Source of the DNA: Chlorobiaceae bacterium
GTDB taxonomy: Bacteria > Bacteroidota > Ignavibacteria > Ignavibacteriales > Ignavibacteriaceae
Reading direction: 5' to 3'
DNA length: 64,000 nt
Assembly: GCA_013824085.1 (NCBI GenBank)
Contig: PNNF01000005.1
Location: forward strand, 1 to 64,000
Shown: piece after piece, positions 19,896-25,154 of the stretch
Position numbering within the stretch: position 1 is the first letter of the stretch
Layout of the letters: every line of letters starts with the position of its first letter
Program-made: the position numbers and the translations under genes
Notes under the pieces: model-generated
What the model was told of the DNA's origin: nothing
The model's input: the letters and a program-made list of their open reading frames with translations, nothing else
The model's database searches: none

Positions 19896-21830
19896 ATGTC
19901 ATTACGTTTTTTTGTAATCTTATTATTTTTTTCGGCAACAACAATTCTTTCACAAGATGAAAAAGAAAAAAATAAAGTCTATCATCTTTCTGAAGTTGTT
20001 ATTTCAGCAACTAGAACCGCAACACCACTTTTAGAAATAGGAAGTTCCATAACTGTTATCGACAGAGATGAAATTGAAAAAAGTAACAAAAATACTTTGT
20101 ATGAACTTCTAACAGATGTGCCAGGGATTTACTTAGCCCAATATGGCGGAACTGGTAAACTAACTTATCTCTATATGCGTGGAGCAAATTCAAACCACAC
20201 TCTTGTTTTCATTGATGGAATTGAAATGAATAACCCTGGAGATCCGAGCAACACTTTTGATTTTTCAAATTTGTTGACTGATGAAATTGAGACAGTAGAA
20301 ATTTTGAGAGGACCACAAAGCACACTCTATGGCTCTGATGCAATGGCGGGAGTGATAAATATAATCACAAAAAAAATTTCTGACGCAAAAAAATATTCCC
20401 TAATGGCTGAAGGCGGAACTTATAATACTTTTAAATTTGATCTCGCCACTTCTGGCAGAGTTGAAAATTTTGGTTACTTAATAAATTTGAATCAATTCAA
20501 AACAGATGGATTTCCCGCAGCGTCAAAAAAATATTTTAACACAATGAATAATGGCTCTGAAAATAATCTTGCGCGACTAAATCTAACTTATGATTTTTCG
20601 CCGCTGACTAAAATTTCTTTTCAAGGCAGATTTACTGATGGTTATGCTGCATTGCCACAATCGGGTGGGCTAAACGGAGAGGATCCCAATTACAATTATG
20701 ATCTTCAAGAAACAATGTTAAGTGGTAAAGTGGATTTTTCAAATCCCGAAAAAAATCTCAACACAATTTTTACTCTTTCCTATTTACGAAATTTTAGAAA
20801 ATATTCTGATGAAGTCGATTTTCTGCGTCCAACAATTTCATCTAAAGCCCGATATGATGGATACAAAGTCAAATACGAGTTGATGAATACTGTGAAGATA
20901 AATGAATCGAACAGAATTATTTTGGGTGCTGAACGTGAAGAGGAGAGCGCAGTCTCAGATTATTTTTATGATGATGGACTGTTTCCATTTATGAGTTCGT
21001 TCCCAAGAAACTCAATTAGTAATTGGGGAATCTATCTGCAAAATCAAGTTGAGATTGACAAGAGTATGTTTGTGAATGTTGGAGGACGTTTAGACTTAAA
21101 TCAAAAATTCGGTTCATATTTTACGTATAGAATTGCGCCAACATATTTTTATTGGGTAACGCGAACAAAGTTAAAAGGGAGCTTGGGTACTGGCTTCAAG
21201 TCACCTTCACTTTTTTATCTATTCGATCCAGTCTATGGAAATCAATCTCTTCAGCCAGAAAAAAATGTAGGATGGGATGTTGGCTTTGAACAATTATTGT
21301 TTGATGATAAAATAATTTTAGACATTACATATTTTGCAAATAATTTTAAAGACTTGTTTGGATTTGACAACCGCTTTAAGGCAACAAACATTTCGAAGGC
21401 TGAATCTAAAGGCGTTGAAGCAAATCTTTTGATGAATATTAGTGATAAATTAAATTTTAAATTGAGTCATACAAGAGTTGATGCAATCGATAAAAATGAA
21501 AACTCAGTTGATTATAATGAACAACTCTTGCGTCGTCCAAAAAATAAATCTTCAATCTCGTTTAATTATAAATTTTTAGACGCAGCAAATTTATTTGCAG
21601 AAACTATTTTTGTTGGAGAGAGAGGAGATAAAGATTTTTCTAAATTTCCTGCAGAAAGAGTAACGTTAAAAAAATATACTTTGGTGAACCTTTCTCTCTC
21701 GTATGAAATTTTGGAATATTTAGAAATTTATGGTCGGATACATAATTTGCTGAATGAAGAATATGAAGAAGTGCTCGGGTATGGCACAGCAGAATTTTCA
21801 AGTTACTTTGGCTTTAGAGTTAATTTATAA
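19896..21830 (+). CDS. btuB: TonB-dependent vitamin B12 receptor
   Basis: A 644-residue outer-membrane receptor. The signal peptide ends near residue 19, followed by a TonB-box-like EVVISATRTATP, a plug domain with LRGPQSTLYGSDAMAGVINI, and a beta barrel ending in a C-terminal aromatic-rich strand (SYFGFRVNL). Cobalamin as ligand follows from the riboswitch directly upstream and from BtuB-like length. AAGGAG lies 8 bp before the ATG. A DUF6580-like membrane gene follows after 90 bp. Confidence 0.92.
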   Translation: MSLRFFVILLFFSATTILSQDEKEKNKVYHLSEVVISATRTATPLLEIGSSITVIDRDEIEKSNKNTLYELLTDVPGIYLAQYGGTGKLTYLYMRGANSNHTLVFIDGIEMNNPGDPSNTFDFSNLLTDEIETVEILRGPQSTLYGSDAMAGVINIITKKISDAKKYSLMAEGGTYNTFKFDLATSGRVENFGYLINLNQFKTDGFPAASKKYFNTMNNGSENNLARLNLTYDFSPLTKISFQGRFTDGYAALPQSGGLNGEDPNYNYDLQETMLSGKVDFSNPEKNLNTIFTLSYLRNFRKYSDEVDFLRPTISSKARYDGYKVKYELMNTVKINESNRIILGAEREEESAVSDYFYDDGLFPFMSSFPRNSISNWGIYLQNQVEIDKSMFVNVGGRLDLNQKFGSYFTYRIAPTYFYWVTRTKLKGSLGTGFKSPSLFYLFDPVYGNQSLQPEKNVGWDVGFEQLLFDDKIILDITYFANNFKDLFGFDNRFKATNISKAESKGVEANLLMNISDKLNFKLSHTRVDAIDKNENSVDYNEQLLRRPKNKSSISFNYKFLDAANLFAETIFVGERGDKDFSKFPAERVTLKKYTLVNLSLSYEILEYLEIYGRIHNLLNEEYEEVLGYGTAEFSSYFGFRVNL

Positions 21831-21920
21831 AATTGGTTTAATGAATAATGGAATATTTTTTTTAATTTGAAGAGTTGAGAAAATAAAACTCTTTAGAATT
21901 GTTTTAGAAAGGAAGAATAA

Positions 21921-22457
21921 ATGAAAGAAAAAATTTTATCTGGAAACTTTTTGTTGGTCGTTACATTGATAATAGTGGCGATTGCATCGAGGTTAATTCC
22001 ACACCCACCAAATTTTGCTCCGATAGCTGCAATTGCACTTTTTAGTGGAGCATATTTTAGCAACAAACAATTAGCATTTGCTGTCCCATTAATTGCACTT
22101 TTTATTTCTGATTGGATAATTGGTTTTCACGATATGATGATTGCAGTTTATGCTTGCTTCATTGCAGCTATATTTATTGGGTTTATGCTGAAGGAAAAAA
22201 TTAAATTCAAAAACGTGGCTCTTGCTGCAGTTGTTTCCTCCGTCCTCTTTTTTGTTGTAACAAATTTTGCGGTCTGGGCTTTTAGTGGTGGAGTTATTTA
22301 TCAGAAAAATATTGCGGGCTTGCTTCAGTGTTATGTAGCAGCAATTCCATTTTTTCATAATACTCTATTAGGCGATTTAGTCTATTCAGGAATTTTATTT
22401 GGTGCTTATGAAACAGCAAAAGTAAAACTCCCGTGGCTTGTAACTGAAAAAGTATAA
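21921..22457 (+). CDS. DUF6580-like integral membrane protein, candidate B12-linked transporter
   Basis: 178 residues with about five hydrophobic segments. The opening PHPPNFAPIAAIALFSGAYF and the end (GDLVYSGILFGAYE) look like DUF6580, a family resembling the S components of ECF vitamin transporters. It lies 90 bp after btuB on the same strand with GGAAG before the ATG. This suggests inner-membrane uptake of cobalamin or a precursor. No BtuCDF or ECF energising subunits are nearby. Confidence 0.7.
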   Translation: MKEKILSGNFLLVVTLIIVAIASRLIPHPPNFAPIAAIALFSGAYFSNKQLAFAVPLIALFISDWIIGFHDMMIAVYACFIAAIFIGFMLKEKIKFKNVALAAVVSSVLFFVVTNFAVWAFSGGVIYQKNIAGLLQCYVAAIPFFHNTLLGDLVYSGILFGAYETAKVKLPWLVTEKV

Positions 22458-22819: not shown

Positions 22820-23110
22820 TTAAAAATCAAAAAGTTGTCCTAATACAGATTTCTTTTTCTTGTACTTATAATAATCATCATCTCTCCTATAATATTGGCC
22901 AGGCGGCGGTGGTGGTGGAGGATGATTATAATTTGGAGGCGGCGGCGGAGGTGGCGGAGAATTTCTCTCTTCCATATCCACTGAGCGTTCAATAATTTTA
23001 TCTAGTTCGCCTCTATCGAGCCAAACACCTCTACATTTTGGACAATAATCAATCTCAATATTTTCTCTATTGCTTATTTGAAGTGTCACATCACATACGG
23101 GACAGTTCAT
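22820..23110 (-). CDS. TFIIB-type zinc-ribbon protein with polyproline tracts
   Basis: 96 residues. A zinc ribbon uses C3, C6, C23 and C26 (CPVC and CPKC), with the GVWLDRGELDKI segment typical of the zf-TFIIB family. It is followed by two polyproline runs (8 and 7 Pro) and a tyrosine- and lysine-rich tail ending LGQLFDF. Members are small cytoplasmic proteins of unknown role. It has its own terminator. Confidence 0.85.
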   Translation of the reverse strand: MNCPVCDVTLQISNRENIEIDYCPKCRGVWLDRGELDKIIERSVDMEERNSPPPPPPPPNYNHPPPPPPPGQYYRRDDDYYKYKKKKSVLGQLFDF

Positions 23111-23170: not shown

Positions 23171-24226
23171 CTAATTAACTTTTTTTTGGGCTCTTTCCAA
23201 CGCCAAAAAAATTATCTTTTCTAATGTTTCATCGTAACTTAAACCAAACGCTTCAGCCGAACGCATAAAGCCCGCTCCTTCAGTAAGATCAGGATTTGGA
23301 TTTACCTCCAGCACAAAGAGTTGATTCTTATCGGTCAAACGCATATCGACACGTGCGTAATCTCTTGTGCCCATTGTTTTGAAAGCTTGAAGTGCAATTG
23401 CTTCAGCTTTTTTCAAAATGCTCTTTGGAAGAATCGCCGGACAAATAGGAAGAGTTTTATGATAAGCTTCATGAAGCTGATCCCACTTTGCTTGAAAACT
23501 TACTATCTTATCTAAATGAGGAGGCATCGTTGAAAAATCTATTTCACTAATTGGTAGAACTGTAGGATTCTGATTTCCAAGCACCGCAACATTTAATTCA
23601 CGCCCATCAATATATTCCTCAAGCAATGCGGTCTGTTTAAACTCCATTAAAATATAGTTTAATCGGTTTTTTAATTCCAATGAATTTCGCACAACAGCAT
23701 TAAAATCAATTCCGATGCTCGCATCCTCAAACGCAGGTTTAACAATAATTGGATATTTTAATTTCGTAGTATATCGGTCTTGAATTTTTTCTACTAATTC
23801 AAATTTTGCAGTCTTAATTCCAATTGATTTTAATATTCGTTTGGTTAAAATTTTATTTTGACAATTAGCCAAACCCAATGGTGAAGCACCTGTGTAAGGG
23901 ATTTTCATCAATTCATATAAACCGCAGATATTCATTTCTAAACGAGCGACGCTATTAAAAATTTCTACAAAATTAAAAATTACATCGGGCTTTTCTTTTT
24001 TCAGACTATTAATCAATAAGATTAGATCATCTTTGATATTCAATGTATAAACATCGAAGCCCCGATTTGCGAGTCGTTCAGAAAGCGATCGATATGCTTC
24101 CTCAGGTGAGTTGTCCTCGATATCAAAAACCGGATTAAATCCAAGTAATTTTGGATCGAAGGTCTGTTTTGGCTTTGGAGGAGCCAAAGGAAATTCATTA
24201 TAAATTACAGCAATTTTAATTTTCAT
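23171..24226 (-). CDS. ATP-grasp ligase, D-Ala-D-Ala ligase-like
   Basis: 351 residues with an ATP-grasp fold: YTGASPLGLANCQNK, the nucleotide-binding YPIIVKPAFEDASIGI, LLEEYIDGREL, and the metal site FVLEVNPNPDL. It resembles D-alanine-D-alanine ligases, but the substrate region differs and there are no mur genes around, so it may join other amino acids or modify a peptide. ATG at 24226 is preferred over 24253 because an A-rich AAAAAAG sits before it. It is divergent, across 91 bp, from a C39-like peptidase. Confidence 0.85.
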   Translation of the reverse strand: MKIKIAVIYNEFPLAPPKPKQTFDPKLLGFNPVFDIEDNSPEEAYRSLSERLANRGFDVYTLNIKDDLILLINSLKKEKPDVIFNFVEIFNSVARLEMNICGLYELMKIPYTGASPLGLANCQNKILTKRILKSIGIKTAKFELVEKIQDRYTTKLKYPIIVKPAFEDASIGIDFNAVVRNSLELKNRLNYILMEFKQTALLEEYIDGRELNVAVLGNQNPTVLPISEIDFSTMPPHLDKIVSFQAKWDQLHEAYHKTLPICPAILPKSILKKAEAIALQAFKTMGTRDYARVDMRLTDKNQLFVLEVNPNPDLTEGAGFMRSAEAFGLSYDETLEKIIFLALERAQKKVN

Positions 24227-24317
24227 CTTTTTTTTATAAAAATAATTCGACAAATTTCATTTCAATAATTTAATTTACCAAAACATTAACTGTTAAAAAA
24301 TTTGTGTTTTTTACTAA

Positions 24318-25154
24318 ATGAGTTTTTATCCACAGCCGTATAAATATCAGTGTGGTCCGTTTGCACTAAAATATTCTTTAGTGATGCTCGGACAATTTAG
24401 AAATGAAAGGGAGATCGGAAAAAAAGCCGGTAGCAATTGGTGGTATGGAACCGATGAGATTGGTCTCGCAAAAGCTGCCAAAAGTTACGATTGCAAAATG
24501 AAATATTTTAGGCGTGAGACTGCAAACGACGCGATAAAAATTTTAGTCTCACATCTAAAAACTGGAACTCCTTGCATTTTAAGTGTTGATAATTGGGAGC
24601 ATTGGTTCACTGTAATTAATTTTCAACAAGATAAATTTATTGTTGTCGATAGTGGCTTAGACAAAGTAATAGTAATCTACACACTTTCACAATTAATAAA
24701 ACGCTGGAAATATTTTGATCAAGAAACCAAAGAACTTAGTTTCGATGGTTACGCGGTTGTTCCAAAATTTAAAGCTAAAACAAAAGCTCTCTTCTCCTTA
24801 GAAAAAGCTCGATACGTAATGCACAAACGAAATGTTGACCTCGCTGAAAAATGGGATACTTACTTCAACGATTTGATAAACATTTGCCGTCCACAAATTC
24901 CCAATTCAAAAAAAACAATTTCATTCAGCGAATTTCTTAGACGCTACGAAAATTTAATTGTAAAAGAAGTAGCTAACTGGCACGGAACACCAAAGTACAA
25001 TGAGCTAAAAAAAATTCTTAAAAACTTAAAGTTCGTTGCTGAAGTTTACGATCTCGTAATTTATAATGAAGATCAAAAAAAAGCGTTAATTGATTTGTCG
25101 GCTCTGTTAATGATGTACGCTTGCGGAAAATATGGAATGGATCCAATCTATTAA
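24318..25154 (+). CDS. C39-like papain-fold cysteine peptidase
   Basis: 278 residues without signal peptide or membrane segment. The N-terminal 120 residues look like a C39 bacteriocin-processing peptidase: QCGPFALKYS with Cys12, EHWFTVI with His95, and VVDSG with Asp111, in triad order. The C-terminal 150 residues are helical and unrecognised. Unlike usual C39 domains it is not fused to an ABC transporter. The divergent ATP-grasp ligase may make its substrate, or both may act on one peptide; this is inference. Confidence 0.7.
   Translation: MSFYPQPYKYQCGPFALKYSLVMLGQFRNEREIGKKAGSNWWYGTDEIGLAKAAKSYDCKMKYFRRETANDAIKILVSHLKTGTPCILSVDNWEHWFTVINFQQDKFIVVDSGLDKVIVIYTLSQLIKRWKYFDQETKELSFDGYAVVPKFKAKTKALFSLEKARYVMHKRNVDLAEKWDTYFNDLINICRPQIPNSKKTISFSEFLRRYENLIVKEVANWHGTPKYNELKKILKNLKFVAEVYDLVIYNEDQKKALIDLSALLMMYACGKYGMDPIY

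Follow-up and report, generated by a model that had tools for sequence, protein, structure and literature searches.

A divergent gene pair encoding a Ddl-fold ATP-grasp ligase and a C39-fold cysteine enzyme is conserved in Ignavibacteria

ATP-grasp ligases and papain-fold cysteine enzymes have been brought together before in the non-ribosomal formation of amides. For closthioamide, PMC6772006 proposes such roles for the ATP-grasp enzyme CtaD and for CtaG, a putative peptidyl transferase that stands beside it; that antibiotic cluster also holds carrier proteins and a thioamide synthetase. According to PMC10318531, the butirosin enzyme BtrH (family BtrH_N, PF14399) is an acyltransferase related to C39, and papain-like DUF3335 proteins are frequently fused to GNAT domains, which are possible peptide ligases. 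The gene pair described here, an ATP-grasp enzyme with a papain-fold partner, is therefore of a known kind. BtrJ is presumably the ATP-grasp partner of BtrH. The papain-like core is common to the transporter C39 peptidases ComA and PCAT1 and to the pseudomurein endoisopeptidase PeiR (Z about 14 to 16), whereas the protein of the pair is soluble, lacks a transporter domain, and carries an additional helical domain of some 110 residues. The ligase shares its fold and the catalytic residues of the ATP/Mg site with Ddl, but its substrate positions are replaced and its scores lie under Ddl cut-offs. We have not found this gene combination, its order-wide conservation, or its tie to a KamA operon described: searches by title and abstract gave no paper describing the pair, for which an earlier mention in the amidoligase-neighborhood survey of Iyer et al. 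2009 is possible, and a description of the KamA-GNAT-ligase A-ligase B operon was not found in the literature searched.

The pair lies on contig 5 of a 2.65-Mb assembly (G000, its own genome), within a window of 64,000 nucleotides that is the whole stretch of DNA analyzed (Table 1). A sequence-only reading of this DNA had described an ATP-grasp gene and a C39-like gene diverging across 91 bp, followed in the direction of the latter by an isochorismatase-family hydrolase gene, with no mur genes nearby, and this layout was confirmed. Both open reading frames (ORFs) are in place, and the ATG start of the ligase gives the 91 bp; its frame opens earlier, with a TTG at 24253 as a possible alternative start. 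The spacer probably consists of two back-to-back promoters, and the isochorismatase-fold gene, which starts 28 bp after the C39-fold gene on the same strand, is likely cotranscribed with it. Neither a mur gene nor an ABC transporter was seen by eye among the ORFs of 18.0 to 32.0 kb, six of which were scanned against Pfam.

Table 1. Features of the locus, in positions of the window
Feature	Position	Strand	Basis or remark
Ddl-fold ATP-grasp ligase, 351 aa (ATG at 24226)	23171..24226	-	ORF list, Pfam
Divergent spacer, 91 bp	24227..24317	.	ORF ends; length conserved in relatives
C39-fold cysteine enzyme, 278 aa	24318..25154	+	ORF list, Pfam
Isochorismatase-fold cysteine hydrolase, 187 aa	25183..25746	+	ORF list, Pfam
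Zinc-ribbon protein, 96 aa, polyproline runs, downstream of ligase	22820..23110	-	Side observation
TonB receptor and DUF6580 protein	19896-22457		Near the pair in 27/102 loci

In order to assess conservation, the surroundings of C39 homologues were collected from the phylum sample and from named genomes, the latter represented by the best 80 of 207 confirmed relatives. The closest named relative among these 80 (L104, 82% identity) belongs to an uncultured member of Ignavibacteria, so that the window very likely derives from this class as well; no plasmid-borne relatives of the C39 protein were found. Merging identical last 200 residues reduced 113 C39 ORFs to 102 distinct loci. The ligase gene is divergent from the C39 gene at a distance of at most 311 nt in 93 of the 102, and the pairing is therefore far beyond chance. 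Four of the nine loci without a ligase neighbor (G140, G164, G208, and G216) belong to genomes with the partner ligase elsewhere, and two (G055 and G251) are second C39 copies (L062 and L063) whose other copy is paired; L105 is at a contig end, and no partner was seen for L064 (from G240) and L131. Among 100 loci surveyed for the spacer, near-duplicates included, an N-terminal motif allowed the start to be assigned in 88, and 81 of these have a spacer of 75 to 109 nt. Apart from the isochorismatase, no third family is found up to six genes away in more than 27 of the 102 loci; the pair is thus kept while its surroundings change. The neighborhood analysis suggested by the sequence-only reading accordingly shows the pair to be conserved outside its own genome, and the undescribed small system that it proposed stands as a real, conserved two-gene module.

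Two sets of neighbors were considered as further parts of the module and rejected. The TonB receptor and DUF6580 genes occur in too few loci (Table 1). Their position is taken by a corrinoid adenosyltransferase gene in other loci, which hints at vitamin B12 uptake. The zinc-ribbon gene was tried as a LysW-like carrier; none of the other ORFs in the fetched loci has its zinc motif, and the sole other BLAST match has an E value of 0.048. On these grounds the gene, which was not found beside the pair in other fetched loci, is not counted in the module.

Co-inheritance of the two proteins was followed in 296 genomes of the phylum, with E-value cut-offs of 1e-5 for C39, 1e-40 for the subfamily ligase, 1e-90 for KamA, and at most 1e-40 for close isochorismatase relatives. 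The C39 protein was found in 33 of these genomes, all of its own class and including 24 of the 28 of its own order, and not in the remaining 263. Ligase trees were read with 44 and 63 rows, C39-negative genomes being represented as a rule by their best match only and L194 (a very long branch) and the fusion proteins of G162 and G227 being left out of the reading. The ligases of the pair form one clade of 32 rows (support 100/99 in the 44-row tree; SH-aLRT 100 in the 63-row tree), and this clade is present in 32 of the 33 C39-positive genomes, 31 on the tree and G014 counted by adjacency; the exception is G240. Among the 263 C39-negative genomes, the clade was found only in G152: 23 of them have a subfamily ligase match, of which 21 are on the trees with G152 alone inside the clade, while G162 and G227 are unplaced. 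In G152 the ligase and isochorismatase genes are kept, separated by 172 bp, and the terminal part of a C39 gene is still present at L157:7714-7749 (YEKYGITKIYQ-stop, compared with CGKYGMTKIYQ-stop in L123), indicating that the C39 gene was deleted there. Fisher's test on these numbers (32/1/1/262) gives a p value of 1e-40 that ignores descent; every C39-positive genome belongs to one class, and the co-occurrence is confounded accordingly.

The clade of the pair's ligases branches inside the ligase-A lineage of a KamA operon, but the pair is unlinked to this operon, whose fetched stretch contains no C39-fold gene. The operon (L073:6334-10080, on G000:C4) encodes a KamA-like radical SAM protein, a GNAT protein, and two Ddl-like ATP-grasp ligases, A and B, in tandem, both from the same subfamily as the ligase of the pair. 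The KamA-like protein of the own genome (lysine-2,3-aminomutase-like) scores 463.7 bits to AblA, under the cut-off of 525.4; it may make beta-lysine. KamA homologues occur in 84 of the 296 genomes, and 43 fall into a close group (E of at most 1e-160, a cut-off chosen afterwards at a gap in the match list), in all 43 of which a subfamily ligase lies within 1.5 kb of the KamA gene. Close-group KamA is present in 31 of the 33 C39-positive genomes and in 12 of the 263 C39-negative ones; it is lacking in G156 and G047, the former also being without ligases A and B. Three members of the own order (G184, G009, and G066) have neither the C39 protein nor any subfamily ligase nor KamA at the above cut-offs. 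Most occurrences of the pair thus fall among the genomes that carry the KamA operon, a pattern that would follow if the pair acted on what this operon makes.

The ligase combines the Ddl fold with a different pocket. It matches Pfam Dala_Dala_lig_C with an E value of 1.4e-35, and all 50 PDB chains listed by Foldseek for its structure model (pLDDT 90.1) are Ddl or D-Ala:D-Lac ligases (best E 2.8e-24). Its scores are far below the curated NCBIfam cut-offs for Ddl (141.9 versus 245.65 bits for TIGR01205; 156.7 versus 243 for NF002378), and a separate Ddl with the usual residues (Ser, Tyr, Ser) is encoded on another contig of the same genome (G000:C6). Residues Ala169, Trp248, and Ala318 of the ligase align with the substrate positions of this Ddl, which correspond to Ser150, Tyr216, and Ser281 of Escherichia coli DdlB. 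The replacements extend to the homologues, counted over rows with a letter (Ala in 98/102, Trp in 101/101, and Ala in 91/101). R292, D294, E307, and N309 are invariant in all 101 rows with a letter, so that the fold and the catalytic Arg/Asp/Glu/Asn set of an ATP-grasp amide ligase are both present; K163 is kept too, and the motif NPNPD (D313) stands where Ddl has NTLPG. By scores, pocket residues, and the separate Ddl in the cell, the enzyme is not the ordinary D-Ala-D-Ala ligase, a possibility that the sequence-only reading had raised. With the catalytic residues kept and the substrate positions replaced, it should still form an acyl phosphate and an amide, from substrates other than those of Ddl.

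The C39-fold protein passes the gathering cut-off of Peptidase_C39 (PF03412) marginally (23.2 versus 22 bits). The full Cys-His-Asp triad previously noted is intact throughout the family, Cys12, His95, and Asp111 each being kept in 113/113 homologous ORFs and Gln6 in 112/113. The predicted structure (pLDDT 85.9) consists of a papain-like domain (residues ~5 to 150) and a helical C-terminal domain (~160 to 270) in which W221 and H222 are invariant. A bacteriocin-type C39 exporter was considered and rejected: the protein has no transporter domain, as the earlier reading had also stated, and neither an ABC-transporter neighbor nor a small ORF resembling a GG precursor is conserved.

The third gene is a frequent but loose partner of the pair. 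Its product matches Pfam Isochorismatase (E 7.4e-33), and Asp21, Lys83, and Cys116, which we take to be the catalytic triad of an isochorismatase-fold hydrolase, are conserved in at least 97% of 81 homologues. When the next four ORFs were checked in the 91 loci whose downstream sequence exceeds 1.5 kb, the gene was present in 68 and absent in 23; the gap from the C39 gene is 2 to 28 nt in 38 of 73 measured. Close relatives occur in 17 of the 33 C39-positive and 23 of the 263 C39-negative genomes. Because of its absence at 23/91 loci and its presence in C39-negative genomes, a role of the hydrolase in the module is weakly supported.

The reading that we favor, tentatively and short of calling it probable, is that Ignavibacteria have a non-ribosomal pathway for a small peptide, that the pair is one dedicated part of it, and that the C39-fold enzyme hydrolyzes the amide made by the ligase. 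The ligase would use ATP to activate a carboxylate as acyl phosphate and then join it to an amine; its substrate would most likely be the product of the unlinked KamA-GNAT-two-ligase operon. In the cytoplasm, Cys12 of the C39-fold enzyme, helped by Gln6, would attack the amide to give an acyl-enzyme that is then hydrolyzed, and the isochorismatase-fold enzyme, where present, might cleave off another small amide. With the genes transcribed divergently, synthesis by the ligase would be balanced against turnover by the C39-fold enzyme and the hydrolase, which would suit a peptide kept in the cell as a reserve or osmolyte. The presence of the C39 protein in most genomes of the order suggests core metabolism rather than a natural-product cluster.

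Hydrolysis is favored since the nearest structures are peptidases and since the C39-fold gene and the isochorismatase-fold gene share one direction, pointing away from the ligase, like a breakdown arm. In VIA-align, the C39-fold domain matches PeiR best (Z 16.4, rmsd 2.6, 130 aligned), followed by ComA (3k8u; Z 15.7, rmsd 2.4, 125 aligned). A peptidase-like predicted fold is, however, no proof of hydrolysis, and a transferase reading is nearly as good: the C39-fold enzyme might be an amide-forming acyl or peptidyl transferase of BtrH/CtaG type in the same pathway, in which case Cys12 would accept an acyl group, supplied by a thioester or by the ligase product, and hand it on to an amine. We regard this as possible, on balance somewhat doubtful. 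It is consistent with the proposed function of CtaG beside CtaD and the described function of BtrH, with weak Pfam BtrH_N matches (E of at most 0.1) in 9 of 14 family members (best E 1.4e-4), and with long Foldseek alignments to CtaG (E 5.9e-5) and AziU3/U2 (E 3.4e-3). Those alignments, however, have rmsd values of 18.5 and 19.2, and in VIA-align CtaG scores below the peptidases (Z 10.5, rmsd 3.6, 137 aligned) and covers only the catalytic domain, residues 9 to 152; the matches to PeiR, ComA, and CtaG are all confined to residues 8 to 152. In addition, profile comparison of the family with five Bacteroidota BtrH_N proteins is weak (77 columns, 56% probability), no protein of the own genome matches BtrH_N at E 1e-5, and no ORF of carrier-protein size is conserved near the pair. 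In other Bacteroidota, BtrH_N proteins were seen by eye beside an ABC-transporter ATPase gene (L170, L171, L174, and L176).

A cell-wall variant of Van type is improbable; here the ligase would supply peptidoglycan with an unusual dipeptide or depsipeptide, and the C39-fold enzyme would act as a precursor peptidase. The Ddl fold of the ligase and the top rank of PeiR are in line with it; against it stand the replaced substrate positions in nearly all ligase homologues, the Ddl already present in the genome, and the lack of any mur gene seen by eye in 18 to 32 kb. Somewhat less credible still are two unrelated housekeeping genes that simply retain a divergent promoter. Divergent gene pairs may persist for regulatory reasons; yet both genes are retained in the four genomes in which they lie apart, and both are missing together from the three order members named above. 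Least likely of all is ribosomal peptide (RiPP) maturation, with the ligase cross-linking a precursor in the manner of graspetides and the C39-fold enzyme cutting its leader: C39 peptidases do cut double-glycine leaders and ATP-grasp ligases do make graspetides (PMC8939145), but the ligase is of Ddl type, the C39 protein is spread through 24/28 genomes of the order, and neither a transporter neighbor nor a precursor-like ORF is conserved. The sequence-only reading had suggested looking for a conserved small ORF in relatives. When ORFs of 20 to 110 aa were collected up to 6 kb away from the C39 gene in 108 loci, some of them near-duplicates, no conserved precursor-like ORF emerged: a Cys-rich protein present in 24 loci makes up the largest cluster, and the next largest numbers 9. 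The "peptide maturation pair" of that reading holds as a conserved two-gene module and is not supported in the RiPP sense. The Cys-rich small protein often adjoins the corrinoid adenosyltransferase gene.

Returning to the favored reading of synthesis and hydrolysis within one pathway, its wider form would be that Ignavibacteria make an undescribed small peptide containing beta-amino acids, through KamA, GNAT, ligases A and B, and the ligase of the pair, that this peptide is a core compound with the role of osmolyte, reserve, or cofactor, and that the C39-fold protein with its helical domain founds a dedicated family of cytoplasmic cysteine enzymes; this broader proposal is speculative and, in our view, rather unlikely to hold in full. 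Present in the majority of sampled genomes of an order whose members are largely uncultured, and co-inherited with a second, unlinked operon, this unnamed enzyme pair gives concrete, testable grounds for supposing a core peptide metabolite yet to be recognized. Stygiobacter electus (L128), a cultured member of the order, provides a way into the biology of the pair, and Melioribacter roseus is, we assume, another cultured member.

Relatives of the ligase are also found outside the pair. Plasmid relatives number 563 records, and in the three of these that were inspected (two from Sinorhizobium and one from Thioflavicoccus) no C39 gene is annotated within 6 kb. On the Thioflavicoccus plasmid (L156:2467-7948), the related ATP-grasp gene lies beside annotated 2,3-diaminopropionate synthesis genes and a KamA-family gene. 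In other Bacteroidota, a Ddl-like ATP-grasp domain is fused to a methyltransferase in proteins of 640 and 647 aa (L168:5089-7011 and L169:5996-7939).
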